A DNA stretch of 32,551 nucleotides, taken from the NCBI GenBank assembly GCA_001556025.1, contig LSIB01000087.1:1-32551 (forward strand). Reading direction: 5' to 3'. Origin of the DNA: Rhizobiales bacterium CCH3-A5. GTDB taxonomy: Bacteria > Pseudomonadota > Alphaproteobacteria > Rhizobiales > Beijerinckiaceae. Below, piece after piece: positions 412 through 16,220 of the stretch; positions within the stretch are counted from its first letter, which is position 1; the number at the start of each line of letters is the position of its first letter. Under the pieces are notes generated by a model. That model was given only the letters and a program-made list of their open reading frames with translations, had not been told where the DNA came from and made no database searches. A program made the translations under genes and the position numbers.

Positions 412-498
412 GCCCAGGTGGCGGAATTGGTAGACGCACCAGCTTCAGGTGCTGGCGCTCGCAAGGGCGTGGAGGTTCGAGTCCTCTCCTGGGCACCA
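412..498 (+). tRNA. tRNA-Leu (anticodon CAG)
   Basis: The acceptor strands GCCCAGG (412-418) and CCTGGGC (488-494) pair perfectly. Discriminator A495 and an encoded CCA (496-498) follow. The anticodon stem CCAGC/GCTGG closes the loop TTCAGGT with anticodon CAG at 446-448. The T arm contains GGTTCGAGTCC. The long variable arm between the anticodon and T arms is typical of a class II tRNA such as leucine. A phage-type integrase gene follows at once, so the 3' end of this gene is probably the attachment site of an integrated element. Confidence 0.97.
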
Positions 499-525
499 CT
501 CTTTTTCGCCTTCGGCGTCAAAGAG
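499..525 (+). terminator. Possible hairpin after tRNA-Leu
   Basis: CTCTTT (499-504) can pair with AAAGAG (520-525), with an inner GCC/GGC pairing around a TTC loop. It sits directly after the CCA end and could terminate the tRNA transcript. It may equally be part of the integration junction. The stem is interrupted and no U-run follows. Confidence 0.3.
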
Positions 526-580
526 TTAAGCATTGATAACGAGTTACATGGTATCCGCTTTGACACCGCGGTTTGACACC

Positions 581-2383
581 ATGGCTCTTGCAATGTCCCG
601 ACCCTTCACTACCAAGCAGGGTTCCTACTATCTGAATGTGAAGGTGCCCAAAGCCCTTCGCGCGCAGGCCAAGGGCCGACGCGTCAGCCTCCCTGTGGCG
701 GGAGAACTGCACAGCGTGGTGATCGGCGAAAAGGTCGTCTTGTCGCTGAGGACCAAGGACCCGGAGACGGCAAAGACGCGCTTTCGCTTGGCGGCGCAGG
801 CGCTTGGTCAATACTTCGAGGCCCTGGAGAAGGGGCCTCAGCCGCTGACGCGCACCCAGCGGACCGCGCTCGTTGGCGACATCTACAGGGAGGCGGTGCG
901 CGATCTCGATGCCGACGACAGTTTTCTAGACGCCATCGAGACGACGACCGCAGAGTTCGACGCCAATGTTGGGCACCACCTCGGCACGGCGCCCGCCGAC
1001 GAAACGGTAGACGGCATCCCTGCGCGGCCCGCTGACGAGAAGACGGCCGAACTCCTGGCCGCGATCGACACGTACGATCCAAAGGCGCTCGCCGCCTGGG
1101 CCCTGAAATACGAAACCGATCCCGCCAAGCGCGCGGTCGCGCTCGAACAGCTCTACGGCCCCCTCGTCGACGGCGAGATCGCCCGCAAGCAGATCCTCGT
1201 CGACGAGACGTCCCGCAGCAAAACGCTCGAGATCATGGATCAGGCTGCGGACGCTTTCGGGGAGATGGCGACGCGCCGGCTGACCAGCCTGGACTTCAGC
1301 GACCCGTTCGGTGCGGGGCTGCCGGCCTGGAACGCGCCGATGCCTGCGACGCCCGGTCCTGCCGCTGCACCGCGTGGCGTCCTGACCGTGGAGAAGCTCT
1401 TCGCCAAATGGAAAGAAGAGAACGCCACCTCGCGCTCTCCTTCGACGTTTCGCCGCTACGGCTTCTCGATCGATGCGTTGATTGCCTTCTGGGGCGAGAA
1501 GGACGTCAGGCTGATCACGCCTGAGGATGTCTTGGCCTTTGCCCAAGAGCGCAAGAAGACCATTCCAGTTGCAACCGTCAACAAGAACGATCTCGTTGCC
1601 GTCTCGTCGATCCTGGGGTGGGCCACGACTCTTCTGGCCGGGAGGCTTCTGGCGTCAAACCCGGCCTACAGGATCAGGCTTCCCGAAGACAGGAAGACGG
1701 TCACCCGCGAGAAGCGGTTCCGTGACAGCGAGATCGCCGCCATCCTTCTTGCCGCGCGGAAGGCGCGCTTCAATGCGAAGATGCCCCGCGCGTCGGCATC
1801 GAGGCGCTGGGCTCCCTGGATTTGCGCCTACACGGGCTGCCGGATCCAGGAGACCTGTTGGGTCACGAAGGACGACATCTACCGCGACGGCGATGTCTGG
1901 CTGATCAACTTCCCGAAGACCAAGATCGACATTGCCCGGCGCGTCCCGCTCCACCCCGCGCTGATCGAGGAGGGCCTGCTCGACTTCCACGCCAAGGCTC
2001 CGTCAGGTTACCTGTTTTGCGGCGACGTGCCCCAAAAGCCCGGCGCCACTCGCACCCAGCAGGAGCAGCGCGCGAGCGAACTCTCGGAATGGATTCGCGA
2101 GCAGGTCACTCTGGATGCAAGCCTCAGCCCGAACCATGGGTGGCGTCACACCTTCATCACACGAGCAGAAGATGCCGGGATCGCCAAACGGCAGAGCAAT
2201 GCGATTACGGGTCACAACACGAAGAAAGACGCCAGCGACGGCTACTATGCGCCGAGCGCCGCGGAGCTGAAGAAGATCATCGATATGTACCCGCGTTACG
2301 ATCTCGATCTCAAATCGGGCGCGACCTCGCCGCTGGAGGCGGACGCGGAGCGCGGGTTGGAGATTCCCGATCGTACAGAATGA
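581..2383 (+). CDS. Tyrosine recombinase / integrase
   Basis: This is a site-specific recombinase of the phage integrase family, about 600 residues long, which would cut and rejoin DNA at the adjacent tRNA-Leu attachment site. The N-terminus (TKQGSYYLNVKVPKALR) looks like the small DNA-binding domain seen in this integrase group. A SAM-like core-binding region lies around residues 265-380. The C-terminal catalytic domain shows Arg421 (GCRIQE), His519 and Arg522 (HGWRHTF), His545 (TGHN) and the likely nucleophile Tyr555 or Tyr556 (DGYYAPS), so the R-H-R-H-Y set appears complete. No strong ribosome-binding site marks the start; ATG at 548 and 593 are alternatives. The 9-base sequence TTTGACACC occurs twice just upstream (559-567, 572-580). 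No excisionase gene was recognised. Confidence 0.93.
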   Translation: MALAMSRPFTTKQGSYYLNVKVPKALRAQAKGRRVSLPVAGELHSVVIGEKVVLSLRTKDPETAKTRFRLAAQALGQYFEALEKGPQPLTRTQRTALVGDIYREAVRDLDADDSFLDAIETTTAEFDANVGHHLGTAPADETVDGIPARPADEKTAELLAAIDTYDPKALAAWALKYETDPAKRAVALEQLYGPLVDGEIARKQILVDETSRSKTLEIMDQAADAFGEMATRRLTSLDFSDPFGAGLPAWNAPMPATPGPAAAPRGVLTVEKLFAKWKEENATSRSPSTFRRYGFSIDALIAFWGEKDVRLITPEDVLAFAQERKKTIPVATVNKNDLVAVSSILGWATTLLAGRLLASNPAYRIRLPEDRKTVTREKRFRDSEIAAILLAARKARFNAKMPRASASRRWAPWICAYTGCRIQETCWVTKDDIYRDGDVWLINFPKTKIDIARRVPLHPALIEEGLLDFHAKAPSGYLFCGDVPQKPGATRTQQEQRASELSEWIREQVTLDASLSPNHGWRHTFITRAEDAGIAKRQSNAITGHNTKKDASDGYYAPSAAELKKIIDMYPRYDLDLKSGATSPLEADAERGLEIPDRTE

Positions 2384-2429: not shown

Positions 2430-2459
2430 CTGACCGAAGTCCGTTTGGACTTTGGTCAG
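2430..2459. terminator. Bidirectional hairpin terminator between convergent genes
   Basis: The 13-base arms CTGACCGAAGTCC (2430-2442) and GGACTTTGGTCAG (2447-2459) enclose a GTTT loop. The plus-strand RNA pairs along the whole stem with one G-U wobble. It separates the integrase from the convergent minus-strand array, and the stop codon of the last array gene (2456-2458) lies inside it. There is no U-run. Confidence 0.6.
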
Positions 2460-3319
2460 AGGGACGGGCTCAAGCCGGTCCCATAGCCTTGTCCCCTGGA
2501 CTTCCAGCTCGCGGCGACCCGGCGCCGCGGCTTGACGACGTGGTCGTGGATGATGGCCTCGACGATGCGCAGGAGACGTTGGGCGTCGCGGCTCTTGGGA
2601 CGGAAGAAGTAGAACTCCAGCGCAGCGCTCGCTCGCTTGATCTCGCCGAAGCCGTAGCCGGTCGCCCGCATGAACTGCATCGGCGCGATGCCGAGCAGAT
2701 CGCAGTGAGCCTGCCCGGCCGGGCTCGCGAGCCAGAGATTGAGCGCGGCGTTGCGCATTCGGGTGTGCAGGCGCTTGTCGAACTCGCGCACCGAAAGGTC
2801 GTCCGGAAGGCGGATCGCGAGCGAGCGCTCCGCGAGGATGACCGGTGAGCCCGGCAGCGGGCCACTCTCGGGCAGGATGTGCTGCAGCATCCAGTTGTCG
2901 TAGCCGAGGTCGCTGCAGGGAAGGCCGTCAGCGCTCGCGGTGAGCGCGCCATAGCGGTCGGCGTTGAGCTCGCGCATGCGGTCGCGCAGATTGACCTGGG
3001 CGGTGACCGAGACCTTGTGCACGGCCATCCTGAGGCGACGCGCGAGGCCGAGCAGGCCGGTCGCGACCGGCATCCGATTGTCCTCGCCGCATCCAGCGCA
3101 GTACACGAAGACGAGCTTGCCGGGCTTGTAGGCGACCTGGAAGCGCGGTGTGACGAAGGCGTCCTCGGGCAGCTTGACCATGGCTTTGCCGCCGACCCGC
3201 GGCCACCGGGTCGGGTACCATTCGGTGACCGCACCGGCGCTTCCTTCTGGCAGCAGCCGGCTGCCGACCGCGCGCTTCGTCTGGTCCGTCGTGCTTTTGC
3301 TGTGATCGATCGTCGTCAC
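2456..3319 (-). CDS. Conserved-looking protein of unknown function (last gene of the array)
   Basis: About 287 residues from a GTG start; a longer frame open to 3430 adds a low-complexity basic N-terminus that overlaps the upstream gene and is probably not translated. I do not recognise the family. A short YCAGCGEDNR segment near residue 80 carries two cysteines, too few for a clear zinc site. The C-terminal third (GYGFGEIKRASAALEFYFFRPKSRDAQRLLRIVEAIIHD) is rich in aromatic and charged residues. Visible features do not include a signal peptide or membrane helix, so a cytoplasmic protein is likely. It follows the Lon-like ATPase by 67 bases on the same strand, which suggests a shared transcript. 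Confidence 0.7.
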   Translation of the reverse strand: MTTIDHSKSTTDQTKRAVGSRLLPEGSAGAVTEWYPTRWPRVGGKAMVKLPEDAFVTPRFQVAYKPGKLVFVYCAGCGEDNRMPVATGLLGLARRLRMAVHKVSVTAQVNLRDRMRELNADRYGALTASADGLPCSDLGYDNWMLQHILPESGPLPGSPVILAERSLAIRLPDDLSVREFDKRLHTRMRNAALNLWLASPAGQAHCDLLGIAPMQFMRATGYGFGEIKRASAALEFYFFRPKSRDAQRLLRIVEAIIHDHVVKPRRRVAASWKSRGQGYGTGLSPSL

Positions 3320-3386
3320 TGTTCTTCGTCTCCGTGCGGGCTCCCCGGGGGCATTCCCGTTCTCACCCTCACTGCCTTGACGACGC

Positions 3387-4589
3387 CTACTTTGACCTTG
3401 GCCGCATGAACCCGATCGGCTCTCTCGCACCCTTCACGTCGCAGATGTCCTCGGCGGCGGTGACATCGGCGACGGTAAGATGGCGCCGCCCGGCCTGCGC
3501 GGCGAAGCCGAGCGCCAGCGCGACGAGCCGGCGAATGCCGCGCGGATTTGTTCGGGCAAGCCGCCCCAGCACCGGCTCGTCCGGCAAGGCCAAGAGGTCA
3601 CCATGCGCCGTGATGATCTCGGTGGCGATGCTGCTGGCGATCGCGCGCAGCATGGCGCCGTCCGGCGGCGTGATCGCAACGATCAGGAACCTGTCCTGGA
3701 TGAAGCCTGGCAGCGCATCGAGATCGTTCGCGGTCGCGACGATCAGGCACCTCGAGAGGTCGAACGGGACGCGCAGATACTCGTCGACGAGGACGCAGGC
3801 ATTCTCCGCTTCGAGCAGGCCGAGAAGGCTGTTGTAAGGCTTCTCGGTCGAGTGGGTGACGAACTTGTCGACCTCGTCGAGCAGAATCAGCGGATTGGCG
3901 GTGTCGCCTCCGAGCAGAGCTTCGGTCAGCACGCCCATGCGCGCGCCGCGCCAAGTGGGCGGGTGACCAATCAGCAGCGCTTGCGCATCGGAGTTGGTCG
4001 CGCAGCTGAAGGCATGCTGCTCGACGCCGAGCGCAGCGGCGAGCCGGCGGGAGAAGTGGGTCTTACCCAGCCCGGGCGGGCCGACGAGCAGGAGCGGCGG
4101 GAAGGCGATTGCCGTGCCGGCCACCGCCGACAGCGCAACGGCCCGCTCGATCAGGGCGATGACCGTCACGAAGCCCGGGCATTCCTCGCGGAGCTTCGCA
4201 AGACGTTCCGGCGTATGCTCATCCGCCCCCACGAGGTGGCGCAGCGGCTCCTCGCCCGCGAGTGCGCGCAGCCGTTCGAGCCGCGTCTGCTCGTCGCTGG
4301 AGGCAGCGGCGAAGGCCATCGCGGTCTCGTCGAAGACGTCGCCGCCGGGTTGGGCCAGCCTGAGCTGCTTCAGCAGCGCTGGCTTGTCGAAGATCGCGAG
4401 CGAGGGTCCGCGCGGTGGCGCGTCCGATCCGGCATCGTGGTCGCCACAATTTGCCTCCGGTTCGAACGCCCCCCCATCGGGACGTTGCCGGCGCAGATGG
4501 CTGAGCAGCGCACCGTTCTCATCGTGACGCCAAGCCTGTGCAAACGCGTCCTTGGCGTGCTCGGAAACTGCGGAGGTCCCGGTGCTCAT
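3387..4589 (-). CDS. Lon-type AAA+ ATPase without protease domain
   Basis: About 400 residues, starting at the ATG 8 bases after the preceding stop. A variable N-terminal part of about 150 residues is followed by an ATPase module that reads like the core of Lon. Walker A is GPPGLGKT (170-177), followed by a Lon-like TWRGARMGVL stretch. Walker B is LILLDEVDK (234-242). After that come YLRVPFDLSR and the sensor-1 segment ATANDLDALP (286-295), Arg300 in QDRF, and a sensor-2-like NPRGIRRLV. The frame ends just after the small ATPase subdomain, so the Ser-Lys protease domain of Lon is absent, as is the Lon N-terminal substrate domain. It is therefore probably an ATP-driven remodeller rather than a protease. 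The ATP-binding assignment is firm; the role is unknown. Confidence 0.88.
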   Translation of the reverse strand: MSTGTSAVSEHAKDAFAQAWRHDENGALLSHLRRQRPDGGAFEPEANCGDHDAGSDAPPRGPSLAIFDKPALLKQLRLAQPGGDVFDETAMAFAAASSDEQTRLERLRALAGEEPLRHLVGADEHTPERLAKLREECPGFVTVIALIERAVALSAVAGTAIAFPPLLLVGPPGLGKTHFSRRLAAALGVEQHAFSCATNSDAQALLIGHPPTWRGARMGVLTEALLGGDTANPLILLDEVDKFVTHSTEKPYNSLLGLLEAENACVLVDEYLRVPFDLSRCLIVATANDLDALPGFIQDRFLIVAITPPDGAMLRAIASSIATEIITAHGDLLALPDEPVLGRLARTNPRGIRRLVALALGFAAQAGRRHLTVADVTAAEDICDVKGAREPIGFMRPRSK

Positions 4590-4597
4590 GACCGGCC

Positions 4598-5542
4598 TCA
4601 CAACTCGACACCGCTGAGGCGCGTGACGAAGGGAGGACCCTGCCGCGCGATCCGCCGCCCGACGCCGAGCGCGATTTCGACCAGCGCGCGCATCCAATCG
4701 GGATCGACGGCGCGCTCGCAGATCAGGCGCTCGACCTCCATCTTCACAACGAGGTCGTCGTGGCTGCGTGCGGGCCAGAGCCCGATCCGGCAGAGTTTTG
4801 CATAAGCGAGAACGCGCCCGCCGCCGATCGCCCCATACCAGTGCGGGCCGATGTCCTCCTGCTCCGACCAGACATCGACTGAAGCCAGACAGGCTTTCGC
4901 CTCGTCGAGAAGTGAGATCAGATCGGGCGGTCCGTTGAACCACGCTTCGAGCGCGGGAGCGTCCTCGAGCCGATAGGCGCCGTGCACGCTGGTGTCGCCT
5001 GCCACTCCATCGCCGCAGATCGCGCCGCCGCGGAACCGTCTCGCCAGTTCGGCAAGCTCAGGCGGAACGCGCCCGTCGCGGGTGGGCCCCATGGTGTGAG
5101 ACGAACCGGGGCCGCGCAGGGCGCGCATCATCAGCTCCGTGGCATGAACGCCGCCGCCGTCGGCGTACTGCAGCGAACGCTCCTGCGACAGCAGCGTCCG
5201 GGCGAAGCGATCCTCTGACGAGATCGGGGGCACGAGCAGCATGGCGATTTCGCCGGCGTGGCCGAGAACGGCCAGTGCGTTTGCCGTGTCGACACGCTGC
5301 TCGAGCGCAGACGGGTCTGCCTCCGCGAGTGCGAGGAACCGCTCGTACTGCCTGGAGTGTTGGAGCGCGCGCTCACGCAGCGTCAGGAGCGGCGGCAGGC
5401 GGTCGAAGAGCGTGGCATGGCGCTCTAGCTCATCGGAGCCCTCGGGCAGAAGCGTCTCAAAAGCGGCGAGCTCATCGACGACGATCCTCGTGCCGGTGGA
5501 AAACCTGAGATCGTGAAGCGTCGAGGCGACAATGTCGGTCAT
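4598..5542 (-). CDS. Array paralog 4 (unknown family, WPAR motif)
   Basis: 314 residues, family not recognised. It is clearly related to the next upstream gene: both have VVDELxAxExLxPE near the start, LFxxLPxLL, a PDLxxLLDxA stretch around residue 205 and a C-terminal AYAKLCRIGLWPARSHDD segment. That last motif, with consensus [IL]WPAxTxxDxxxK, recurs near the C-terminus of all four tandem genes here. A second, weaker copy (AMLLVPPISSEDRFAR) lies near residue 100, which hints at an internal repeat. No signal peptide or clear membrane span is visible. The gene follows a hairpin terminator and a leader, with ACCCCAGGGA upstream of ATG as ribosome-binding site, and is followed closely by the Lon-like ATPase. 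Confidence 0.8.
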   Translation of the reverse strand: MTDIVASTLHDLRFSTGTRIVVDELAAFETLLPEGSDELERHATLFDRLPPLLTLRERALQHSRQYERFLALAEADPSALEQRVDTANALAVLGHAGEIAMLLVPPISSEDRFARTLLSQERSLQYADGGGVHATELMMRALRGPGSSHTMGPTRDGRVPPELAELARRFRGGAICGDGVAGDTSVHGAYRLEDAPALEAWFNGPPDLISLLDEAKACLASVDVWSEQEDIGPHWYGAIGGGRVLAYAKLCRIGLWPARSHDDLVVKMEVERLICERAVDPDWMRALVEIALGVGRRIARQGPPFVTRLSGVEL

Positions 5543-5608
5543 GGTCTGGCTTCAATCCCTGGGGTCGGCCTGTCCGCCCCTTCACGATCAGAGTCCCGTC
5601 ATGACAAA

Positions 5609-5632
5609 AGGCGCGTCGGTGAAGACGCGCCT
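5609..5632 (-). terminator. Intercistronic intrinsic terminator (array junction 4)
   Basis: On the minus strand AGGCGCGTC and GACGCGCCT pair over 9 bp around a 6-base loop, followed by TTTT. It lies 36 nt after the stop of array paralog 3 and about 65 nt before the start of paralog 4. The same arrangement recurs at three other junctions of this array. Confidence 0.7.
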
Positions 5633-5667
5633 CTCGTTATCCTGGGCGTGGTGCCACGACGCTTCGG

Positions 5668-6609
5668 TCAGCCGCGCTCATCGACGTTGAGGAAGCGGGA
5701 GCTCTGGCCCGAGACCGTCTCCCCCTGGCCGAACGCGATCTCCCACAGCGCGCCGAGCCGGTCGGGATCGGCATCGCGTCCGCGGACGAGTTCGCGCGCG
5801 GCGATCTTGGCGGCGACGTCCGCCTGCGTCCGGGCCGGCCACAGCGCGACGCGCAGCAGGCGGGCATAGGCGAGGATCAGCCCGCCCTCTATGGCATCGG
5901 TGGTCATGCCATCGGGCTCGGCGACGTCCCGAACCCGATCGACCAGATTGAGCAGACAACTTGCGCCGTCGAGAAGCCCGGCGAGATCAGGCGCGGCATT
6001 GAAGTACGCCTTGAGGCTTTCGGCCTGCTCCAGGGTGTGAACGCTGGCAGCACCGGGGCCGGCGACCCTGACCGGCCGAAGCGCGCCCGCGCGGCGCGCC
6101 ATCGTCTCGATCAGCTCGCGCACGGCGTCGCCGGTCTCCGGCAGCATCAGTTGCTGCGGACGCCGCGGCAGTTCGCCGACCGCCCGGCGGGCGAGCGCGA
6201 CATCCTCGCCATCGCCATGACGGTCAGAATGGCGAAGCAGGTTGCGGCCGAATTGCTCGCGCGCCCACACGTCGTCGTCGGAGCGGACCGGCAGCAGGAG
6301 CAGCGCCAGGTTCGACGCATTGGTCATGATCGTCAGCGCGTTGACGACGTCGATCCAGGTCTCGACCTGTTCGGGCTCGCGGCCGATGAGCCCGATGATG
6401 CGGCGGACCTGCTCGGTATGAGCTTGGCCGCGCCCTTTGACTTCCAACAGCGTGGGAAGCTGGTTGCGGAAGAGCGCGAGGCTCTCAGCCTCGCTGGGCG
6501 CCTCGGGAACGAGGCGCTCCAGCGCGGTAAGCTCGTCGACGACGTGATGCAGGGTCGCATCGATGACGATGGCGCTGAGCAGTTCGTCGCGGCGGGTCTT
6601 GGTGTTCAT
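5668..6609 (-). CDS. Array paralog 3 (unknown family, WPAR motif)
   Basis: 313 residues, family not recognised, the closest relative of the 314-residue gene downstream. Shared features are the N-terminal VVDELTALERLVPE, LFRNQLPTLL, WIDVVNALTIM, FNAAPDLAGLLDGA and the C-terminal EGGLILAYARLLRVALWPARTQADVAAK. An N-terminal half-copy of the last motif is seen in LALLLLPVRSDDDVWAR. The protein looks soluble and largely helical. The ATG is preceded by a CCCACAGGACTC leader that is repeated, with changes, before the other paralogs. A strong terminator lies on each side of the gene, so it may form its own transcript or depend on read-through. Confidence 0.8.
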   Translation of the reverse strand: MNTKTRRDELLSAIVIDATLHHVVDELTALERLVPEAPSEAESLALFRNQLPTLLEVKGRGQAHTEQVRRIIGLIGREPEQVETWIDVVNALTIMTNASNLALLLLPVRSDDDVWAREQFGRNLLRHSDRHGDGEDVALARRAVGELPRRPQQLMLPETGDAVRELIETMARRAGALRPVRVAGPGAASVHTLEQAESLKAYFNAAPDLAGLLDGASCLLNLVDRVRDVAEPDGMTTDAIEGGLILAYARLLRVALWPARTQADVAAKIAARELVRGRDADPDRLGALWEIAFGQGETVSGQSSRFLNVDERG

Positions 6610-6681
6610 GGTCTTGCTTTCGAGTCCTGTGGGGTGATCTGCTCTCGGCAGTCGCTTTCCCTCCCGTCCCCGGAATCAAAA

Positions 6682-6709
6682 AAGGCAGCGCCGGTGTCGG
6701 CGCTGCCTT
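6682..6709 (-). terminator. Strong intrinsic terminator (array junction 3)
   Basis: A perfect 12-bp stem (AAGGCAGCGCCG with CGGCGCTGCCTT) with a 4-base loop is followed on the minus strand by a run of T residues (TTTTTTGATTCC). It lies 29 nt after the stop of array paralog 2. It is the most canonical of the four junction terminators. Confidence 0.85.
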
Positions 6710-6737
6710 CCTTGTCGTTACGTAGGCCGCTGGGCTG

Positions 6738-7739
6738 TCAGACCAACTCGTTAAAGTCGAAGACGAGGTCGTCGCGGGCATCGACCGGCAGCGACTTGAC
6801 CCAGGCGGCATCCGCCGTGACGTGCCGGACCGCGCCCTGCATGTTCACGGGATCGCCGAGTTCGCCGCGCAGATTGATCAGCGATACGATCTCGCGTTTC
6901 GTCGCGAGCGCGGCACGGGTGTGAACGGGCCAGATCATGACCTGCGCCGCGGCCAGGTAGCCGGCGATACGGGCGCCTTCGGCGGCCTCAATCAGTTCAC
7001 TCGCGTTCTGAGGGCCACGGCCGGCGAGCGTGATCAGTCGATCGCAGATCTCGAACATTGCCTTCGCCCGCCGCAGCAGGTGATCGAGGTCGGGCGCGGC
7101 CTTGGCGAAGCCGACCCAGGCGGCGATCTCGGTATGGGCGTAGGCTGGCAAGCCTCCGCGCAGCTCCAGACCCTCGGTCAGGTTCCAGCGCTCCAGCGGC
7201 CAAGTCGAGAGCCCGCGCTGGTCGCCCTGCGGAGGGGATGTAGGCGGCGGCAGCATCAGCGCGGGCACGGAGAAGGCCGCGCGCTTCCAGCGCACGCGGC
7301 GCGCCAGCGTCGCGTGCATCGTCGAGACGAAGGTCTTGTCTCTGTGATGGTGCAGCGCGCCGATCTGATCGGCCAGCGCGAGCTTGGCCTCGGCTTGATC
7401 GAGGTCGTCGGCCGGCCAGATCGCGGTGAGAGCGACGAGGCTGAGGCTCATGATCTGCAGCCCGGCGCAAACGCGCTCCTGGACATCATGCTCCAGTACG
7501 TCGAAAAGCCCGAGCCGGAACTCCTCGCTCTGAAGGCTCTTGGCGGTCCGCGCCGCGTTCTTCAGGTCGATCGGCTGGCGACGGAAGGCCGCGAGTTCGG
7601 AGACGCTGGGATCGTCGCCCCCAGTGATCTCCATGGCCACGGCGATCGGGTCGCGCAGCGCCTTGTCCTCGTACGCGTCCACCGGGCCACCGGTGCGCGC
7701 GGCGAGCGAGCGCCCGCCATCCTGCTGATTTTTGGTCAT
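6738..7739 (-). CDS. Array paralog 2 (unknown family, two IWP motifs)
   Basis: 333 residues from the ATG at 7739. This start was chosen because its leader aligns with those of the other paralogs; an in-frame ATG at 7754 is an alternative. The family is not recognised. It matches the next upstream gene over its length. Both contain an N-terminal GLQIMSLSLVALTAIWPADDLDQAEAK-type segment (around residue 110), a central RGLSTWPLERWNL-type stretch, PDLxxLLxRxxAM, and a C-terminal AAEGARIAGYLAAAQVMIWPVHT segment. The IWP motif therefore occurs twice in the protein, suggesting two repeats of about 150 residues. The downstream two paralogs share the C-terminal motif. No export signal is visible. Confidence 0.82.
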   Translation of the reverse strand: MTKNQQDGGRSLAARTGGPVDAYEDKALRDPIAVAMEITGGDDPSVSELAAFRRQPIDLKNAARTAKSLQSEEFRLGLFDVLEHDVQERVCAGLQIMSLSLVALTAIWPADDLDQAEAKLALADQIGALHHHRDKTFVSTMHATLARRVRWKRAAFSVPALMLPPPTSPPQGDQRGLSTWPLERWNLTEGLELRGGLPAYAHTEIAAWVGFAKAAPDLDHLLRRAKAMFEICDRLITLAGRGPQNASELIEAAEGARIAGYLAAAQVMIWPVHTRAALATKREIVSLINLRGELGDPVNMQGAVRHVTADAAWVKSLPVDARDDLVFDFNELV

Positions 7740-7805
7740 GTTGAACTTTCTCATGTGGGTCACGACCATCTGGCCGCACGTCTCCCTCCGCTCCTGAGAA
7801 TCGCA

Positions 7806-7831
7806 GATGGCGCCCCCGCAAGGACGCCATC
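7806..7831 (-). terminator. Intercistronic hairpin (array junction 2)
   Basis: GATGGCG and CGCCATC pair over 7 bp around a 12-base loop. On the minus strand the hairpin is followed by TGCGATTCTC, the position where the sister junctions have a T-run and GATTCC. It lies 27 nt after the stop of array paralog 1. It is the weakest of the four and may be a decayed terminator. Confidence 0.45.
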
Positions 7832-7857
7832 GCCATGTCCTCTCTCCGGCGATTTCG

Positions 7858-8859
7858 CTACACTATGGGGATCCACTGCGGGTTGAGCTCGAGCGCTGCC
7901 CCGAATCGGAACCGCCGGGCGATGAAGTTCGCCTCGCTGACCAGATGCCGAATCGTGGCCTGCATGTGGAGAGGATCGTGCCGGCAGGCGCGGTCGTTGA
8001 TCAGCGCCACCAGCCTGAACTTGGCCTCAGCGTCCGCCGAGTGTAGCAGGGCCGGCCAGATCGCGGCCCGGGCCGCGGAAAGGTAGGCGAGGATCCGAGC
8101 GCCCTCCGCAGCCCGGCGCATCGCCGCGCTGTCGGGCTCGTTGCGATGGGCAATCACCGTGAGGCGATCGGCGATCGCGATCATCGCGCTGAAGCGGTCG
8201 ACCAGCGCGGTCAGGTCAGGATAGGCGTCGACGAAGGCCTTCCACCGGGCGATGCCGCAAGCATCCAGGGTGGCCGGCCCGCCGGCCAGCGGCACCGCGT
8301 CGATGAGATCGAACCGCGACAGCGGCCAGGTCGCGAGACCCCTGTCGGTGGGCGCCGGTCCGGGAGGGCCTGGAGGCACGACGAGCGCGCCGACGTCGAA
8401 GGCGGCGCGGTGGAGCCTGACGCGGGCCGCGTCCTCGACCGAGAGCATCGGCGCCGTCCCGAAGTCGGAGTCTTCGGAGTGTGGCTGCGTCTCCCGAGCG
8501 AGCGCCCGTTTGGCGTCGGCATCATCGATCGAGTCCGTCGGCCAGATCGCCACGATCGCCGCGCAGCTCAAGCCGACGATCTGCAGTCCGACCTCTGCCA
8601 TGCGCTCCTCGTAGGTCCGTTCGAGGCCGAGCGGCAGTCGGTCCGCCTCGTCGTTGCAGCGCTTCGCTTCGCGCGCGAACAGCTTCAAGTCGGGGGCGTG
8701 ATCGCGCACCGCCATCAGCTCGGCGAGCGAGGGATTGTTGCCGATGCTGCGGGTCGCCTCGTCGAGCGGGTCGCGGATCGGCCCGAGTGGCCGGTTGCCG
8801 CCGCCGTCGTGATCCGTCGCGACGGGCGTGAGGTCGCGGTCCTGGTCGTTGTTCGTCAT
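7858..8859 (-). CDS. Array paralog 1 (unknown family, two IWP motifs)
   Basis: 333 residues, the same length as the next gene downstream, to which it aligns throughout. The ATG at 8859 is preferred over 8883 because the leader CCCACAGGATTCAAAAGACC leads into it. Shared segments are LQIVGLSCAAIVAIWPTDSIDDADAKRALA (around residue 110), RGLATWPLSRFDL, AYPDLTALVDRFSAM and AEGARILAYLSAARAAIWPALLHSADAEAK near residue 270, then DPLHMQATIRHLVSEA. The family is unknown to me. The doubled IWP motif and helical character suggest a two-repeat scaffold. The exonuclease gene lies upstream, separated by a terminator and leader. Confidence 0.82.
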   Translation of the reverse strand: MTNNDQDRDLTPVATDHDGGGNRPLGPIRDPLDEATRSIGNNPSLAELMAVRDHAPDLKLFAREAKRCNDEADRLPLGLERTYEERMAEVGLQIVGLSCAAIVAIWPTDSIDDADAKRALARETQPHSEDSDFGTAPMLSVEDAARVRLHRAAFDVGALVVPPGPPGPAPTDRGLATWPLSRFDLIDAVPLAGGPATLDACGIARWKAFVDAYPDLTALVDRFSAMIAIADRLTVIAHRNEPDSAAMRRAAEGARILAYLSAARAAIWPALLHSADAEAKFRLVALINDRACRHDPLHMQATIRHLVSEANFIARRFRFGAALELNPQWIPIV

Positions 8860-8927
8860 GGTCTTTTGAATCCTGTGGGTCACAGCCCCATCGGCTGCGC
8901 TTCACCTCCGTCCTCCCGGAATCGAAC

Positions 8928-8949
8928 AAGGCGCCGTCGCCGGCGCCTT
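8928..8949 (-). terminator. Intercistronic intrinsic terminator (array junction 1)
   Basis: AAGGCGCCG and CGGCGCCTT form a 9-bp stem with a 4-base loop. On the minus strand GTTCGATTCCGGGAGG follows. It lies 31 nt after the exonuclease stop. The GATTCCGGG sequence that follows is also present after the junction-3 terminator. Confidence 0.7.
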
Positions 8950-8979
8950 CTCATCGTCATCCGCCCCGGGCTGTTCGGT

Positions 8980-10386
8980 TCAGGCCGCGAGCTGGAAGAA
9001 CCGGCTCTGCTCGCAAAGCCACCGCTCGATCGCGTCGAGATGCGCATGCCGGGCGGCGTCCCCTGCGGGAAGCGTCTGTCGCAGCAGCGCGATCTCACCG
9101 AGCGCTTTCGGCAACGTCAGCCAGGGCACGTCGGCTTGCGTCGTCAGCCGGTCACGCAGCCAGGCCTGGCCCTTCTGCCAGCCCGCCGGCGACAACGTCT
9201 GCGGCGCCTCCAGCAGCGCCAGTCGATTGGCGAAGGCTTTCAGCCGCTCGTCGCCGAACCCGGCCGCGATCGCGGCCCGGTCCTCCCAGGGTGAGGCATG
9301 CCAGCGGGCGCAGGCCCGGGCATCGTCGTTTGAGAGGAAACCGCCGCTGTAGAGCGTCGCCTCGGGGTAGGGCGAGGGTTCGCGATCGGTGAAGCGGTTG
9401 GCCAGGGCCGTCGCGAGGTTCGCCCTGAAACCGGCATGCTCCCGGATACGGGCAGCGCGCTCGTTGTAGAGCGCGGGATCCCGCTGATCGTCCGGCAGCG
9501 TGTGGCAGCCCTGTTCATAGGCGATGAGGATCGGCTGGGCGTTGGTCTTGATCGTCCGGATCGGACGAACGCCACGCTGCGAGAACAGCGCGATGATCTC
9601 CTCGGCGGGCAAGTCGAGATAGCTTGCCGGGTCGACTGTCAGATCGACGGCGGCCCATGAGGTCGCGACGGTCGGGTTCGGCGTCACGCCGACAACGGGC
9701 GTCAGTCGAGAGACGCCGCCGAGCAGAAGGACCTCGCCGCCGGCCAGCATCCGGTTCGGCACGGCCTTGTCGGCGAGGGCGAGCATGGTCGCGACAGTGG
9801 TCGGCGCGACCTCGCTCAGGTGCCGGAACAGGGCCAGCGTCGCCCGGGTGTCGGCCAGCGCGTCATGCGCCTCTTCTTCGGACAGCGCGATGCCGTTGGC
9901 CCGGCAGATGTCGCCGAGCTTGAAGCTCGGTTTGCCGGTCGCGCCAAGCGGTATGGCCAGAGCGGAAGGCTCCAGCAACGCCACCGCCCTGACCATGGTC
10001 AGGAGGTCGGCGCGCCGATTGCCGTTCAATTGCGTCGCATAGGGCGGGAGGAGATGGGTGAAGTACGCGTGTCTGAGGATCTCCTCGTCGAACCGGATAC
10101 CAGAGTAGCCAAGTATGGTGGCCGGCGCCCACGACGCCAGGGCCTTCGCGATGACGTTCAACATCTCCGTCGGTGACAGCGGCGCCTGTTCGAGCTGTTC
10201 GGGCCGGATGCCGGTCGTCAGGAGTGCGCCGGGCGACGGCACGATATGGGCCGGCAGCCGGCAGCGGAGCGAGAGCTCGCCCAGCGGCGCGAGGTTCTCA
10301 TCGGCATGGATCAGGGCCGCCTGCAACGGCACGTTCCATTGCGGTTCGAGACCGCTCGTCTCGAGATCGTAAATTACGAAGGACAT
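8980..10386 (-). CDS. sbcB: Exodeoxyribonuclease I (SbcB-like, DEDDh family)
   Basis: 468 residues, close to the length of E. coli exonuclease I. It would degrade single-stranded DNA from the 3' end. The DEDDh catalytic set is visible: Asp7 and Glu9 in IYDLETSG, Asp100 in GYSGIRFDEEILR, and His174 with Asp179 in AHDALADTRATL. The remaining 280 residues correspond to the SH3-like and C-terminal regions of the ExoI family. The ATG at 10386 is preceded by AGGACCAGAAGCCG, a good ribosome-binding site, 13 nt after the stop of the small upstream gene. ExoI is normally a chromosomal repair gene; here it sits in a run of unknown genes next to an integrase. The gene symbol is by family; it may be an accessory copy. 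Confidence 0.9.
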   Translation of the reverse strand: MSFVIYDLETSGLEPQWNVPLQAALIHADENLAPLGELSLRCRLPAHIVPSPGALLTTGIRPEQLEQAPLSPTEMLNVIAKALASWAPATILGYSGIRFDEEILRHAYFTHLLPPYATQLNGNRRADLLTMVRAVALLEPSALAIPLGATGKPSFKLGDICRANGIALSEEEAHDALADTRATLALFRHLSEVAPTTVATMLALADKAVPNRMLAGGEVLLLGGVSRLTPVVGVTPNPTVATSWAAVDLTVDPASYLDLPAEEIIALFSQRGVRPIRTIKTNAQPILIAYEQGCHTLPDDQRDPALYNERAARIREHAGFRANLATALANRFTDREPSPYPEATLYSGGFLSNDDARACARWHASPWEDRAAIAAGFGDERLKAFANRLALLEAPQTLSPAGWQKGQAWLRDRLTTQADVPWLTLPKALGEIALLRQTLPAGDAARHAHLDAIERWLCEQSRFFQLAA

Positions 10387-10399
10387 CGGCTTCTGGTCC

Positions 10400-10864
10400 T
10401 CAGTGCCGGCTCGGCGAGCCGGGCGGCATCGGCGCCTTGCGCAGGGTGATGCCGAGCTCGCGCGCATCCTCTTTCATCGCGGCCTCGACCATCACCGCGG
10501 TTCGCGACCGGTTGATCTCCTGCTCGTCGAACGCCATGGCCTCGGCGACCATGATCTTGCGCTCGAAATGCCCGATCTCGCGCGCCGGTGCTTCAGCCAG
10601 CATGAAGGCGTAGAGGCGCGCATGGGCGCGAGCGCCCTCTGCCATCTGTAGGGCCGTCAGGCCGCCATGCTCGGGAAATGACCGCTCAGGCTGCTGCTCG
10701 AGCAGCAGCGCGTGCGCCAGGGCTTCCTGCCAGAGCCAGAAGAACCGCTCCGGCTGATCGGTCGTCAACTGGTAGCCGCGCTGGTAGCGCGACAGATGCG
10801 CGGCCGTCGGCCGCGCCTCGCCTTGGGCGGTGTCGCCGCCCTCCGTGTTGCTATTCACTCTCAT
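10400..10864 (-). CDS. Small unknown protein, first gene of the array
   Basis: 154 residues, family not recognised. The body is predicted helical: ERFFWLWQEALAHALLLEQQP, then MAEGARAHARLYAFMLAEAPAREIGHFERKIMVAEAMAFDEQE. The AEGAR start of the second segment resembles the AEGARIxxY block of array paralogs 1 and 2, but the similarity is too short to claim kinship. The start codon lies 2 nt after a 9-bp hairpin whose loop holds GAGAGA. The exonuclease gene follows after 13 nt, so the two are probably co-translated. Confidence 0.65.
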   Translation of the reverse strand: MRVNSNTEGGDTAQGEARPTAAHLSRYQRGYQLTTDQPERFFWLWQEALAHALLLEQQPERSFPEHGGLTALQMAEGARAHARLYAFMLAEAPAREIGHFERKIMVAEAMAFDEQEINRSRTAVMVEAAMKEDARELGITLRKAPMPPGSPSRH

Positions 10865-10866
10865 AC

Positions 10867-10894
10867 CCGTTCCGGTTCGTCTCTCCCGGAACGG
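10867..10894 (-). promoter_or_regulatory. Leader hairpin at the start of the array
   Basis: CCGTTCCGG and CCGGAACGG form a perfect 9-bp stem with a 10-base loop, GAGAGACGAA on the minus strand. The hairpin ends 2 nt before the ATG of the first array gene. The purine-rich loop is the only candidate ribosome-binding sequence. The TTCCGGGAG part also occurs in the leaders before array paralogs 1 and 3. Confidence 0.5.
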
Positions 10895-11070: not shown

Positions 11071-11841
11071 CTAAGCGCGCATCCACCCCCATTTGGCGAA
11101 GATGCGCTGGCCTTCAGCCGAGGCGAGAAACTCCACAAAGCCCTTGGCTTCCGGTCGCATTTGCCCACGCTTCGTCAGGGCTATGCCCGTGTCACGATAG
11201 ATCCGAAGGTCCGGCTCGACCTCGACGACGTCCGCGAGTGTTGGGTTGGCGACCTGCCAGATCGTCCAGATCAGCCAGGCGTCGAGCGAACTGTCCTCGA
11301 CCCACGCCTTCCGGGCGTCGGCGCTGTTCTTGGCGACCTTCCCAATGTTGGAGCGAAAGGCTTTGACGTCAGCGATGCGGCCGAGCCGGCCAGCTACGTC
11401 CTCCCACAGGCCCTGCTGGCCAGCGCCGTTGACGACTAGGATGCTGTGGCCGGGCTCGAGCAGGGTCTTCACGCCGCCGACCTTTTTTGGGTTGCCCGGC
11501 CGGACCAGGATTGCGGAGGCGCGCAGGTAGAGCGGCTGCACGGTTGAGGGATCAATGCCGGGCATCGCTTCGATGAAGTCCGACATCATCACCTCGGAGC
11601 CGCTGAAGATCATGTCGGCGTCCTTGGTCGCCTTGTCCTTCCAGGCCGGAAGCGGACCGGCTTCGACCTGTACTTCGATGCCTTGCGCCTTGCCGAAGGT
11701 GGCGGCAGCCTCCTTCATCGCCGGCATCGGCCCGCCGGGGCCGTAGACGCGTAGAGGCTCGGCGGCGCTTGCCGGCGTAGCAAGCGAGGCGGCAAGTCCG
11801 GCGCCGAGGATCCCGATATCGCGACGGCTGAGATGGGTCAT
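11071..11841 (-). CDS. Periplasmic solute-binding protein, AcfC-like
   Basis: 256 residues. The N-terminus MTHLSRRDIGILGAGLAASLATPASA is a twin-arginine-like or Sec export signal. The mature part begins LRVYGPGGPMPAMKEAAATFGKAQGIEVQVEAGP and contains ADMIFSGSEVMMSDF and YLRASAILVRPGNPKK, typical of the AcfC group of ABC-type periplasmic binding proteins related to ModA-type anion binders. The bound ligand is not known for this group. The gene lies 34 nt after the YeiH-type exporter on the same strand, so an anion or sulfur-oxyanion ligand is a reasonable guess. No permease or ATPase is adjacent, so it may act in sensing or buffering rather than uptake. Confidence 0.8.
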   Translation of the reverse strand: MTHLSRRDIGILGAGLAASLATPASAAEPLRVYGPGGPMPAMKEAAATFGKAQGIEVQVEAGPLPAWKDKATKDADMIFSGSEVMMSDFIEAMPGIDPSTVQPLYLRASAILVRPGNPKKVGGVKTLLEPGHSILVVNGAGQQGLWEDVAGRLGRIADVKAFRSNIGKVAKNSADARKAWVEDSSLDAWLIWTIWQVANPTLADVVEVEPDLRIYRDTGIALTKRGQMRPEAKGFVEFLASAEGQRIFAKWGWMRA

Positions 11842-11875
11842 GGGTTGATCCTTTCGTTTTTCCGGAGGCGCCGGC

Positions 11876-12973
11876 TCACGCCACGCCGATGAGATGAATG
11901 AGGCCGAACGAGATGGCGGCGAGCGCGAGCAACGAGAGGACGACCGCGCCCGTGACCCGAGGGCCGGCCCTGGCCACCGAGCGGATGTCGACGCCGAGGC
12001 CAAGCGCAGCCATCGACACGATCGTGAGCAGGTTCGCAACCGTCGCCAGCGGCGAAAGAAGGGCGGTCGGGATGAGGCCGGCCGAGCGAAACGCCGCCAT
12101 CACGAGGAAGCCAACGATGAACCAGGGCACGAGATGGTGGACGGCGATCCGCTTGGGCGCCGGGCGATCGCCGGCGGTCACATGCGGCGCAGGTTTGTCG
12201 GTCTCTTCGCGCAGGCGTCCAGACAGCATCGACAGGACCAGCACGACCGGGCCGAGCATCAGGACGCGCACGAGCTTGACGAGTGTGCCGACCTGGATCG
12301 CGGCTGCACCCGCCGGAGCCGTGGCCGCGATGACCTGGGGGACAGCATAGACCGTCAATCCCGAGAGCACGCCGAATTGGTGAACGCTCAGGCCGAGCGC
12401 CGGGATCAGGAGAGGCAGGCCGAGGACCACGACGACTCCGAGAACCGCCGTGAAGGCGATCGAGGCTGCGACGTCGTCTCCATCAGCGCCGATGACGGGC
12501 GCGACCGCCGCAATGGCCGAGTTACCGCAGATCGAGTTGCCGCAGGCGACGAGGATCGCCATGCGCTGTGGCAGACCGAGCAGGCGGCCGATGGCATAGC
12601 TCAGCCCGATTGCGACGAATACGACGACCGCGATTCCGATCAGCAGGCCAGCTCCAGCCGCGGCGATCGTCGCCGCGCTCAGCGAGGCGCCCAGCAACAC
12701 CACCGCGATCTCCAGCAGGGTCTTGGCCGAGAAGGAAATGCCGGGCCGCCAGCCGCTGCCTGGCGTCCACAGCGACCGGATCACTGTGCCGATCAGGATC
12801 GCCATGACGAGCGCCTCCAACCATACCCGGCCGAAATAACCCGCCTCGACATGTTCGATTCCCAGCGCGACCGCCGACACACCGACGCAGAGCAGAACGC
12901 CGGGCCAGATGGGCAGGGCGTCGAGCGTAGAAGAGGAATTTAAAGGCGTTCTCGACTGGGTCGGCAGGGTCAT
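11876..12973 (-). CDS. yeiH: YeiH-family putative sulfite/sulfate exporter
   Basis: About 365 residues with ten or so hydrophobic segments, matching the YeiH (UPF0324) inner-membrane family in length. Typical stretches are RVWLEALVMAILIG, AKTLLEIAVVLLGASLS, and the signature ACGNSICGNSAIAAVAPVI, then VYAVPQVIAATAPAG. The family is annotated as a putative sulfate or sulfite exporter on the basis of context. Start ATG 12973 has GGA 8 bases upstream; ATG 12985 is in frame and also possible. It shares a strand with the small membrane protein upstream and the binding protein downstream. A divergent LysR gene and a nearby sulfite dehydrogenase support a role in sulfite detoxification. Confidence 0.87.
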   Translation of the reverse strand: MTLPTQSRTPLNSSSTLDALPIWPGVLLCVGVSAVALGIEHVEAGYFGRVWLEALVMAILIGTVIRSLWTPGSGWRPGISFSAKTLLEIAVVLLGASLSAATIAAAGAGLLIGIAVVVFVAIGLSYAIGRLLGLPQRMAILVACGNSICGNSAIAAVAPVIGADGDDVAASIAFTAVLGVVVVLGLPLLIPALGLSVHQFGVLSGLTVYAVPQVIAATAPAGAAAIQVGTLVKLVRVLMLGPVVLVLSMLSGRLREETDKPAPHVTAGDRPAPKRIAVHHLVPWFIVGFLVMAAFRSAGLIPTALLSPLATVANLLTIVSMAALGLGVDIRSVARAGPRVTGAVVLSLLALAAISFGLIHLIGVA

Positions 12974-13022
12974 CGCGGCATCCATTCGTTCGATGCGTGA
13001 TCTGTCGCTTACCGTAATTGAT

Positions 13023-13277
13023 TTATCCAACAGGTTGTTTCTCTTGTTTCGATCGATAAATTCGATTGGTATCGATTGAAGCGCGATCAGCTTTGGCTGC
13101 GAGCCTGAGGAAGGCTGCGCCGGCAATTATGATCGAGCCGAACACACTGCCGGCGAGGACATACAGAATGCGCTTGCCCCATGGTCCCTGCCGCGCGCTG
13201 TCGGTCGTGAGGCGCGCGGGATGGTCGTCGAAATGGTGCGGCGGTGGCTGGTTGTGGTCGGGCTCGATGCTCGTCAT
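13023..13277 (-). CDS. Small single-span membrane protein
   Basis: 84 residues. A polar, His/Pro-rich N-terminus (HNQPPPHHFDDHPARL) is followed by one clear transmembrane helix, ILYVLAGSVFGSIIIAGAAF (residues about 37-56), and a basic tail. I do not know the family. It starts about 34 nt downstream of the -10 element of a candidate ECF promoter and precedes the YeiH-type exporter gene. The 3' part runs into AT-rich DNA that may also hold a regulator site, so the reading frame is plausible but not proven. Confidence 0.55.
   Translation of the reverse strand: MTSIEPDHNQPPPHHFDDHPARLTTDSARQGPWGKRILYVLAGSVFGSIIIAGAAFLRLAAKADRASIDTNRIYRSKQEKQPVG
13052..13076. promoter_or_regulatory. AT-rich dyad, possible LysR operator for yeiH
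   Basis: ATCGA-TAAAT-TCGAT (13052-13066) is a perfect dyad, and a further ATCGAT follows at 13071-13076. The surrounding 12990-13080 is much richer in A/T than its flanks and lies upstream of the exporter gene. LysR regulators bind such interrupted dyads, but no contact evidence exists here. Confidence 0.3.
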
Positions 13278-13310
13278 CAGGCATGCTCGCTGTCGGGAGG
13301 GATGATGAGG

Positions 13311-13337
13311 AGACGCAAAGGCCCTTCGATTTATTCC
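13311..13337 (-). promoter_or_regulatory. ECF-sigma promoter of the exporter operon
   Basis: Read on the minus strand, GGAAT (13337-13333) and CGTCT (13315-13311) are separated by exactly 17 bases. The same boxes and spacing lie upstream of sorA. The site faces the small membrane protein, yeiH and the binding-protein gene. Its -35 box is 15 bases from the divergent LysR start codon, so the two promoters must overlap. Confidence 0.65.
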
Positions 13338-13351
13338 GGCGAGGCGTTCGT

Positions 13352-14242
13352 ATGACTCTCGAACAACTGCGGATCTTTGTTGCGGTCGCCGAGCGCGCGC
13401 ACGTCACGCGCGCCGCCTCCGATCTCAATCTGACGCAGTCAGCAACCAGCGCGGCGATTGCGGCCCTGGAGTATCGGCACGCGGTGAAGCTGTTCGATCG
13501 CGTGGGTAGGCGGATCGCGCTAACCGATGCCGGCCGACTGTTTCTCCAGGAGGCGCGGGCGATCCTGACACGCGCGGCCGCCGGCGAGCAGATCCTGGCC
13601 GATCTCGCGGGGCTGAAGCGCGGCAGGCTCGCTTTCGCCGCGAGCCAGACGATCGGGAACTATTGGTTGCCGCCAAGGCTTGCTGCGTTTCGCAAGCGCC
13701 ACCCGGGCATCGAAACACCGCTGGTGATCGGCAACACCGAGACCGTGACCACCGCCATCCATGACGGGCTGGCGGACATCGGCTTCGTCGAGGGCGAGAT
13801 CGATGATCTCCATCTCACCCAGGAGAGCGTCGCAACCGACGACATGAGCATCGTCGTCTCGCGCGATCATCCGTGGTCCGTGCGTGATGCCGTCACTCCT
13901 AACGAGTTCGGCGAAACGTCCTGGATTTTGCGCGAACCGGGCTCGGGGACGCGGCAGCTTCTGGAAACGGTGCTACGGGAAGCGGGACGCACGCTCGCAG
14001 ACCTCGACGTCGCGCTCGAACTGCCCGCCAACGAAGCCGTTCGCGCCGCGGTCGAAGCTGGCGCCGGCGCGAGCCTGATGTCGCGGCTCGTCGTCGCGAG
14101 CGCGTTGCGTTCCGGAGGGCTCGTGGACGTGGCGGCCGACATCCCACCGCGCCGCTTTCTGATACTGCGGCACAAGGAGCGTTACGTTAGCCGGGCCGCG
14201 CAGGCCTTTCGCGAGCTGCTCGACGAGGAGCAGTCCCGATGA
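13352..14242 (+). CDS. LysR-family regulator, YeiE-like
   Basis: 296 residues. The N-terminal winged helix-turn-helix is clear: MTLEQLRIFVAVAERAHVTRAASDLNLTQSATSAAIAALE, then LFDRVGRRIALTDAG. A periplasmic-binding-type effector domain follows from about residue 90 (GRLAFAASQTIGNYWLPPRLAAFRKRHPGIE). It lies divergent to the YeiH-type exporter operon, the arrangement seen for yeiE/yeiH, and YeiE-type regulators have been linked to sulfite. A sulfur-oxyanion effector is therefore likely but inferred. The stop overlaps the next gene's ATG by 4 bases, which indicates co-translation. The upstream frame open from 13244 overlaps the divergent promoter and is not used. Confidence 0.88.
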   Translation: MTLEQLRIFVAVAERAHVTRAASDLNLTQSATSAAIAALEYRHAVKLFDRVGRRIALTDAGRLFLQEARAILTRAAAGEQILADLAGLKRGRLAFAASQTIGNYWLPPRLAAFRKRHPGIETPLVIGNTETVTTAIHDGLADIGFVEGEIDDLHLTQESVATDDMSIVVSRDHPWSVRDAVTPNEFGETSWILREPGSGTRQLLETVLREAGRTLADLDVALELPANEAVRAAVEAGAGASLMSRLVVASALRSGGLVDVAADIPPRRFLILRHKERYVSRAAQAFRELLDEEQSR

Positions 14243-14817: not shown

Positions 14818-14832
14818 TCTGGCATTGCTCCA

Positions 14833-16162: not shown

Positions 16163-16188
16163 ACCTTTCAGACCTTCTCTTCAAGAGT

Positions 16189-16215: not shown

Positions 16216-16220
16216 TGTCT

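Follow-up and report, generated by a model that had tools for sequence, protein, structure and literature searches.

Tycheposons are genomic islands that spread via phage particles or vesicles. Large islands seated at tRNA genes are already known as tycheposons (PMC10872708), and for many genomic islands the means of movement has yet to be explained (PMC11389934); IGF loops dock ClpX onto ClpP (PMC9035409). Here we describe an array of eight genes in a stretch of 32,551 nucleotides (nt) from Rhizobiales bacterium CCH3-A5 (GenBank assembly GCA_001556025.1, contig LSIB01000087.1, positions 1 to 32,551 of the forward strand; hereafter the window). The array encodes an ExoI-like exonuclease, a Lon-type ATPase, four paralogs (p1 to p4) and two further proteins (g1 and g8), and lies beside a tyrosine integrase at a tRNA-Leu gene. 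On balance, we are inclined to read it as a conserved integrase-proximal backbone of large tRNA-integrated islands of the soil bacterium Bosea, a module for maintenance or mobility rather than a stand-alone kit or an anti-phage system, because it sits at the integrase end of cargo islands bounded by attachment (att) sites. The features of the window are as follows:

412..498, plus strand: tRNA-Leu(CAG), the island attachment gene (ARAGORN, Rfam RF00005); in other Bosea genomes, copies of its 3′ end mark where islands end
470..507, plus strand: putative att core, made up of the tRNA 3′ end and about 9 nt more; elsewhere, island ends carry copies of 27–40 nt
533..2383, plus strand: tyrosine integrase with DUF6538 and Phage_integrase (Pfam); start uncertain, 533 or 593
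2456..3319, minus strand: g8, alpha/beta protein (alignment, AlphaFold model, co-variation with the integrase)
3387..4589, minus strand: lon, Lon-type AAA+ ATPase without protease domain, C-terminal PIGFM (sequence matches, conserved residues)
4598..5542, minus strand: p1 paralog (paralog comparison)
5552..5641, minus strand: structured element upstream of p1 (weak match to R1, E = 0.002)
5668..6609, minus strand: p2 paralog (paralog comparison)
6622..6717, minus strand: structured element upstream of p2 (gap alignment, covariance model)
6738..7739, minus strand: p3 paralog; longer starts possible, up to 7769
7747..7838, minus strand: structured element upstream of p3 (gap alignment, covariation count, covariance model)
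7858..8859, minus strand: p4 paralog, all-helical model with two tandem modules (AlphaFold, hhalign)
8867..8957, minus strand: structured element upstream of p4 (gap alignment, covariation count, covariance model)
8980..10386, minus strand: exoI, SbcB-like DEDDh exonuclease (Pfam and other profile matches, conserved residues)
10400..10864, minus strand: g1, small protein (alignment; suggestive hhalign match to one p module)
11071..32551, no strand assigned: probable island cargo (Pfam scan of 10 open reading frames (ORFs), three of them without a match)

The array runs on the minus strand in the order g1, exoI, p4, p3, p2, p1, lon, g8, converging on the integrase. With the most likely starts of the ATPase (4589, not 4943) and of g8 (3319), the genes are free of overlap. 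An earlier note on this DNA had described eight same-strand genes beside an integrase, namely an exonuclease, a protease-less Lon ATPase, four paralogs and two uncharacterized genes; the ORFs at 10864–2456, the integrase at 533–2383, the profile matches and the E-values among the paralogs all agree with that description. The size of the islands, their tRNA att repeats, the structured element ahead of the paralogs and the C-terminal IGF motif of the ATPase go beyond it.

A search of Bosea genomes with the tRNA-Leu region as query revealed extra same-strand copies of the tRNA 3′ end, far off. These copies bound islands of about 7–220 kb, sometimes in tandem, with the module at the integrase end. 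The direct repeats at the far ends measure 27–40 nt for tRNA-Leu (genomes G033, G029, G028 and G057) and 33–36 nt for tRNA-Glu (G057 and G028). Island ends were read in genomes with one large contig:

G033, tRNA-Leu, islands of 97 and 151 kb: 878,347 / 975,007 / 1,126,459
G029, tRNA-Leu, islands of 69, 54, 30 and 7 kb: 1,280,086 / 1,211,226 / 1,157,224 / 1,127,160 / 1,119,740
G057, tRNA-Leu, island of 141 kb: 73,754 / 214,665
G028, tRNA-Leu, islands of 27, 220 and 31 kb: 5,158,557 / 5,131,788 / 4,911,295 / 4,880,034
G057 and G028, tRNA-Glu, islands of 92 kb (G057) and of 156 and 79 kb (G028)

A long open integrase frame lies beside the tRNA or att copy in nine of these segments (two in G033; 69, 54 and 7 kb in G029; two in G057; the 220 kb and the first tRNA-Glu segment in G028). 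Eight of the nine carry lon and g8, and seven of these also g1 and exoI. The 30 kb segment of G029 and the 27, 31 and 79 kb segments of G028 gave no g8 or exoI match; the first of them contains a 243-nt integrase piece only, and those of 27 and 31 kb contain no integrase match. Close relatives of the integrase within the genus (E ≤ 1e-78) have g8 within about 7 kb in 14 of 16 cases. Conversely, where a locus has g8 and at least 2.5 kb beyond it, an integrase or tRNA gene stands within 6 kb on the g8 side in 24 of 33; the first tRNA beyond g8, present in 23 loci, is specific for Leu, Glu, Arg, Gly, Gln, Met or Val. A distance of 2.2 Mb separates the second tRNA-Leu copy of G017 from the first, and this genome looks rearranged. 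At the level of sequence, then, islands with repeats of the tRNA 3′ end, a module at their integrase end and a structured element before most p units can be made out; we infer that the module serves the island.

A small island ending near 11,032, where loci L004, L007 and L017 stop matching, was also considered. Tests for it found no second att copy within the window, and in 23 loci no shared word longer than 13 bases turned up at distances of up to 9 kb from the cassette. The idea was dropped after the genus-wide tRNA search, because copies of the tRNA 3′ end were found up to hundreds of kb away.

All five gene families occur together in 37 of 56 loci, or 38 once L060 and L061, which form a single contiguous stretch, are counted as one; this total leaves out L028–L058 (short copies), L090 (a g8 fragment) and L091–L119 (junctions, plasmids and later additions). 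Of the other loci, five are truncated at contig ends, four are halves of split cassettes in G017, three (L062, L070 and L078) are partial copies, one (L026) is an orphan p gene and four (L085–L088) are distant single homologs. The earlier note had asked whether the genes always co-occur beside integrases and had counted their separate occurrence elsewhere against a candidate system. Co-occurrence near an integrase or tRNA holds for most loci, though not always; separate occurrence is seen in part, in the G017 halves, the partial copies, the orphan, the distant homologs and plasmid ExoI genes, and the set otherwise recurs. Full cassettes contain one to six p genes, and in L018 and L020–L022 lon is placed between exoI and the p genes. 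The G017 loci L063, L064, L065 and L066 are g1-exoI halves and p-lon-g8-integrase halves lying megabases apart, and L119 (G029:C2 199009-203050) is a cassette remnant with the shuffled order g8-lon-p-p.

Within the genus of G007 (Bosea sp. CRIB-10, locus L012), g8 was detected in 27 of 67 genomes, in at least one by a fragment only (G039), and exoI at E ≤ 1e-30 in 26 of 67, two of which (G046 and G068) have a distant ExoI without g8. The six g8 matches of G002 correspond to five places and a fragment. In a sample of 397 genomes of the order, g8 was found only in G007 and one other genome, that is, in 1 of 396 others, by a coarser search scoring the best six candidates or fewer per genome; the unlisted genomes may include Bosea. 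The genome bearing L018 (G011) falls outside the genus list, and the module is therefore not strictly confined to the genus. An alignment search with the p family returned 24 genome-contig loci, all titled Bosea or Hyphomicrobiales, Rhizobiales or Beijerinckiaceae bacterium; named relatives of p4 are nearly all Bosea, with one bin called Stutzerimonas, which marks the source genome of the window as Bosea-like. The p family was not found in viral contigs, and a plasmid search gave one distant match for g8. ExoI relatives occur in 41 plasmid records, four of which cover at least 80% of the query, and ATPase relatives in 82, none of which covers 80%.

Mantel correlation of distances reached r = 0.70 for g1-exoI (n = 44) and 0.60 for g8-integrase (n = 16, DUF6538-type integrases only), as against 0.13–0.31 for the other eight gene pairs, with lon-g8 at 0.24 (n = 43). 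The alleles are thus shuffled, with mosaic inheritance, and the two ends of the array, g1-exoI and g8-integrase, are co-inherited. A working link between g8 and the integrase is favoured over mere neighbourhood because lon, although closer to g8 than the integrase is, gives a coefficient of no more than 0.24 with g8. Incompatibility of coexisting copies was considered and is not supported: g1, exoI and lon show no drop in identity within genomes, while g8 gave P = 0.14 and the integrase P = 0.01 from three pairs only.

The best named family of the ATPase is Lon, with PDB Lon entries matching down to E = 5.4e-36. The match spans the AAA part only, and the protein ends at 400 amino acids, without a C-terminal Ser-Lys protease domain. 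Walker A and B motifs and the putative arginine finger and sensor 2 arginines are invariant in 23 of 23 aligned copies; among copies added later, Walker A of L067 escaped a simple pattern, as did Walker B of L068, L070 and L078. All 45 cassette ATPases with a visible C-terminus (including L060, a C-terminal piece only) possess [IM]GF near it, IGF in 43 and MGF in two, within an otherwise variable tail and down to about 35% identity; the 45 are mutually related, so this is conservation and not 45 independent events. As a control, 154 unrelated ORFs of the same loci contain [IVLM]GF in the last 60 residues in eight cases and in the last 30 in none. The motif resembles those that dock onto ClpP, and we hypothesize that this tail does so too. 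Three plasmid Lon-type ATPases also end in such a motif, from Variovorax (MGF), Raoultella (VGF) and Acidovorax (MGF); their loci are L001 7818-8789, L002 7239-8813 and L105 2410-3831. A C-terminal GF common to all Lon-like plasmid ATPases was rejected, being absent in four proteins matched over a shorter stretch.

The exonuclease matches Exonuc_X-T_C (E = 2.6e-19) and RNase_T (E = 7.5e-08) in Pfam, and its putative DEDDh residues D7, E9, D100, H174 and D179 are the same in all 21 aligned sequences; both ExoI and the ATPase thus appear to retain their catalytic residues. In Pfam, PADLOC, PHROGs and NCBIfam, g1, g8 and the p proteins match nothing at E ≤ 0.001. Comparison of g1 with the C-terminal half of the p proteins by hhalign gave 30.5% (P = 5e-4), and a further hhalign run 17%, which only suggests that g1 may be a one-module p protein. 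A perfect inverted repeat with 9-base arms (window 10865-10895) ends a few bases ahead of the g1 start, and an altered version precedes g1 in L025 and L006. ARAGORN places a tRNA-Ala within exoI (10285-10364) without Rfam support, probably falsely. In L086 (7001-9344) a distant Bosea ExoI lies behind a 171-amino-acid M78/ImmA (CapP-like) peptidase and a 134-amino-acid gene; together they may form a small defence or damage-response unit of their own.

The ExoI sequence also bears on a rival explanation, under which the cassette is an island-borne anti-phage or anti-plasmid system in which the p proteins sense the invader, the ATPase remodels and ExoI destroys single-stranded DNA. Its high score with the PADLOC model of the DRT-associated SbcB (RTasSbcB, E = 3.6e-81) points that way, as do the allelic mosaicism and the CapP-like peptidase adjoining the distant homolog. 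In PADLOC 2023, however, only exoI gives a strong specific match, the ATPase yielding weak AAA hits (best E = 7e-06), and a scan of the nine window proteins found no reverse transcriptase domain among them. Moreover, in the samples searched the cassette is nearly restricted to one genus and mostly stands at the integrase ends of islands, and the viral and plasmid searches above returned no p gene and one distant g8, respectively. The earlier note had leaned towards a defence or anti-defence cassette, which agrees with the integrase-proximal position on islands as large as about 220 kb less well than the alternative it also allowed, element maintenance or transfer. We regard a defence role as rather unlikely.

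The four paralogs fall into related pairs: p1 and p2 are 35% identical (E = 6e-41), p3 and p4 39% (E = 2e-57), and p2 matches p3 at E = 2e-07. The AlphaFold model of p4 is all-helical (pLDDT 86.1), with a second half that repeats the first in tandem (hhalign 96.4%, E = 1.1e-9). That of g8 is alpha/beta (pLDDT 88.4), and structure searches with both models gave no fold match of note. The strand order of g8 prompted comparison with GIY-YIG nucleases, an assignment that is not claimed: a Pfam scan of 88 members of the g8 family (E ≤ 1) gave no such match, neither PDB sequences nor folds gave a relevant one, and the best viral library hit had E = 0.1, although such a nuclease may have escaped these searches. 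In three loci (L008 4689-7174, L010 12216-14725 and L077 10300-12776) an opposite-strand pair of uncharacterized genes, of about 340 and 485–497 amino acids, separates the second and third p genes; that in L008 matches nothing in Pfam or PADLOC. Beyond g8, one more p gene, accompanied by an element of its own, occurs in L069 (4199-5197), L071 (13983-14912), L075 (2978-3919) and L076 (3517-4440). The orphan p gene with element in L026 (9904-10942) has an integrase about 3.3 kb off, and no other cassette gene was found there.

The gaps between units hold a conserved two-hairpin element of about 90 nt that covaries strongly and is located upstream of 131 of 156 p hits. In 71 copies, 95.2% of pair cells are standard pairs, as against 36–49% in slid controls, and 11 of 16 pairs have changed on both sides, with 115 such cells vs 35 in shuffles; related sequences without structure can beat shuffles, and the slid control is the safer one. 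RNAalifold, applied to 70 copies, recovered hairpin 1 only, because in hairpin 2 the copies of p1 and p2 type fall out of alignment; therefore the 71 copies used for the covariation count were picked by eye from 114 distinct ones without these two types. The hairpin 2 pair at columns 70–88 is unpaired in 35 of the 71. No Rfam family reaches its gathering score at the element.

With a covariance model, 194 element matches (E ≤ 0.1) were found across 70 sources. Of these, 161 lie on the sense strand: 132 ahead of p, 19 ahead of lon, 3 ahead of g8, two at the end of broken G017 cassettes and five with no ORF behind them. In L065 (G017) a peptide transporter gene begins 12 nt behind an element. 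The genome-wide search scored the best 150 of about 5,000 candidates per genome. Among these, 39 matches of at least 30 bits occur in 11 genomes, 38 of them within a cassette or right next to a p gene, and the remaining one by a weak g1 piece (19 bits). At E < 5e-4 there are 44 scored matches, seven of them outside the cassettes then known: two strong ones by p genes, one by the weak g1 piece and four below 30 bits without explanation. The best element score in two cassette-free genomes, among scored candidates, is 26.1 bits.

The simplest reading is that the element acts as a leader co-regulating the p genes, since it stands about 7–17 nt ahead of the matched start of most p proteins. The same spacing speaks against an attC-like recombination site for shuffling p units in place of an RNA leader, an explanation suggested by the variable number (one to six) and order of p units, by the relocated lon of L018 and L020–L022 and by the two broken G017 cassettes that end at an element; homologous recombination alone could account for the shuffling, and we consider such a site unlikely. 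Quite improbable is an addiction or stability module that prevents island loss without a role in mobility: several copies do share one genome at the integrase-proximal position, yet the nine window proteins include no toxin or antitoxin family, and in g1, exoI and lon no exclusion between coexisting copies is seen.

If the eight genes are indeed an integrase-proximal backbone, the integrase, with g8 as a partner in directionality or synapsis, would integrate and excise the element. ExoI, probably together with g1, would trim 3′ single-stranded DNA ends arising from excision or replication, and the Lon-type hexamer would unfold or evict proteins of these complexes and may pass them to the host ClpP via its IGF tails. 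The helical p proteins would serve as interchangeable adaptors or scaffolds, their dose co-regulated via the shared leader elements. We tentatively speculate that these parts form a new class of machine for moving or keeping islands that reach about 220 kb and apparently lack conjugation machinery, built from a ClpP-borrowing protease-less Lon, a dedicated ExoI, an integrase partner of new fold (g8) and a variable set of helical adaptors under their own cognate leaders, a combined picture that we hold to be possible and in its entirety doubtful.

Several observations weigh against a backbone role. The 7 kb segment of G029 has an open divergent integrase (515 amino acids, 36% identical) and no module, and of the 11 integrase matches with E between 1e-61 and 1e-45 (at least two being pieces) none has g8 nearby. 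Nine of the 33 cassettes lack an integrase or tRNA within 6 kb, although in L072 one is found 7 kb away, and two of the nine loci hold distant homologs of g8. DUF6538 is missing in three of four other integrases checked, in one of them falling below the Pfam cut-off. An empty site in related genomes is seen only in part: left flanks match in six of six genomes and the right flank only in G029, with G038 and G012, pieces of 72–116 nt. Both the order-wide g8 search and the element search scored only part of the candidates. The roles given to g8 and p4 are guesses, because their models match no known fold, and IGF-ClpP binding is hypothesized from a tripeptide among related sequences. The pairing of a nuclease with an ATPase, together with the deep mosaicism of the alleles, would fit a conflict system as well, and excision, transfer and activity of the module are predictions.

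The genes to the right of 11,071 look like metabolic cargo of the island, with Pfam matches to a LysR regulator, a Mo-oxidoreductase, a beta-propeller, a peptide ABC transporter and a mandelate-racemase-like enzyme. The first cargo gene adjoins g1 also in G002 and G033 and lies 4 kb from g1 in G007.

A family of large Bosea islands with one common backbone would make the question of island movement testable on eight defined genes, and the two-hairpin element can be used as a probe for cassettes. The Lon-type ATPase with ClpP-like docking tails would, if confirmed, represent a new unfoldase-protease pairing.

As far as the scans of PADLOC, PHROGs, NCBIfam and Pfam show, the gene set is not a named system, in line with the earlier note, which knew of none, and among the open-licence papers listed there was no report of the eight-gene module or of a protease-less Lon with IGF. 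The cassette ATPase shares the AAA+ module with Lon protease (endopeptidase La), its best named sequence match, but it lacks the protease domain, has a short N-terminus without Lon match and carries a C-terminal IGF tail. With the ClpX/ClpA-type partners of ClpP it shares an IGF tripeptide that could fill the hydrophobic sites of ClpP; in ClpX the tripeptide lies in a loop of the large AAA domain (PMC9035409), whereas in the cassette ATPase it lies in a C-terminal tail. DRT systems with RTasSbcB resemble the cassette in their ExoI and differ in having the reverse transcriptase that the cassette lacks.

The islands share a tRNA site and a tyrosine integrase with integrative and conjugative elements, but the VirB4-type ATPase (PF03135) was absent in eight of nine cassette-bearing genomes and in the ninth (G032) lies on non-cassette contigs. 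A relaxase (PF03432) occurs in six of the nine, in three about 8–29 kb from a cassette, and none was found in G029, G057 or G017. The tyrosine integrase adjoins the tRNA 3′ end, as in tRNA-integrated islands. With tycheposons, which are described as having a tRNA gene at the border, a tyrosine recombinase and cargo at sizes of 4–200 kb, the Bosea islands have in common the tRNA border, the tyrosine recombinase and the large cargo (PMC10872708); they differ from them in a backbone of ExoI, Lon-type ATPase, p proteins and g8, which the available text of that source does not name for tycheposons, and in their arrangement in tandem arrays.

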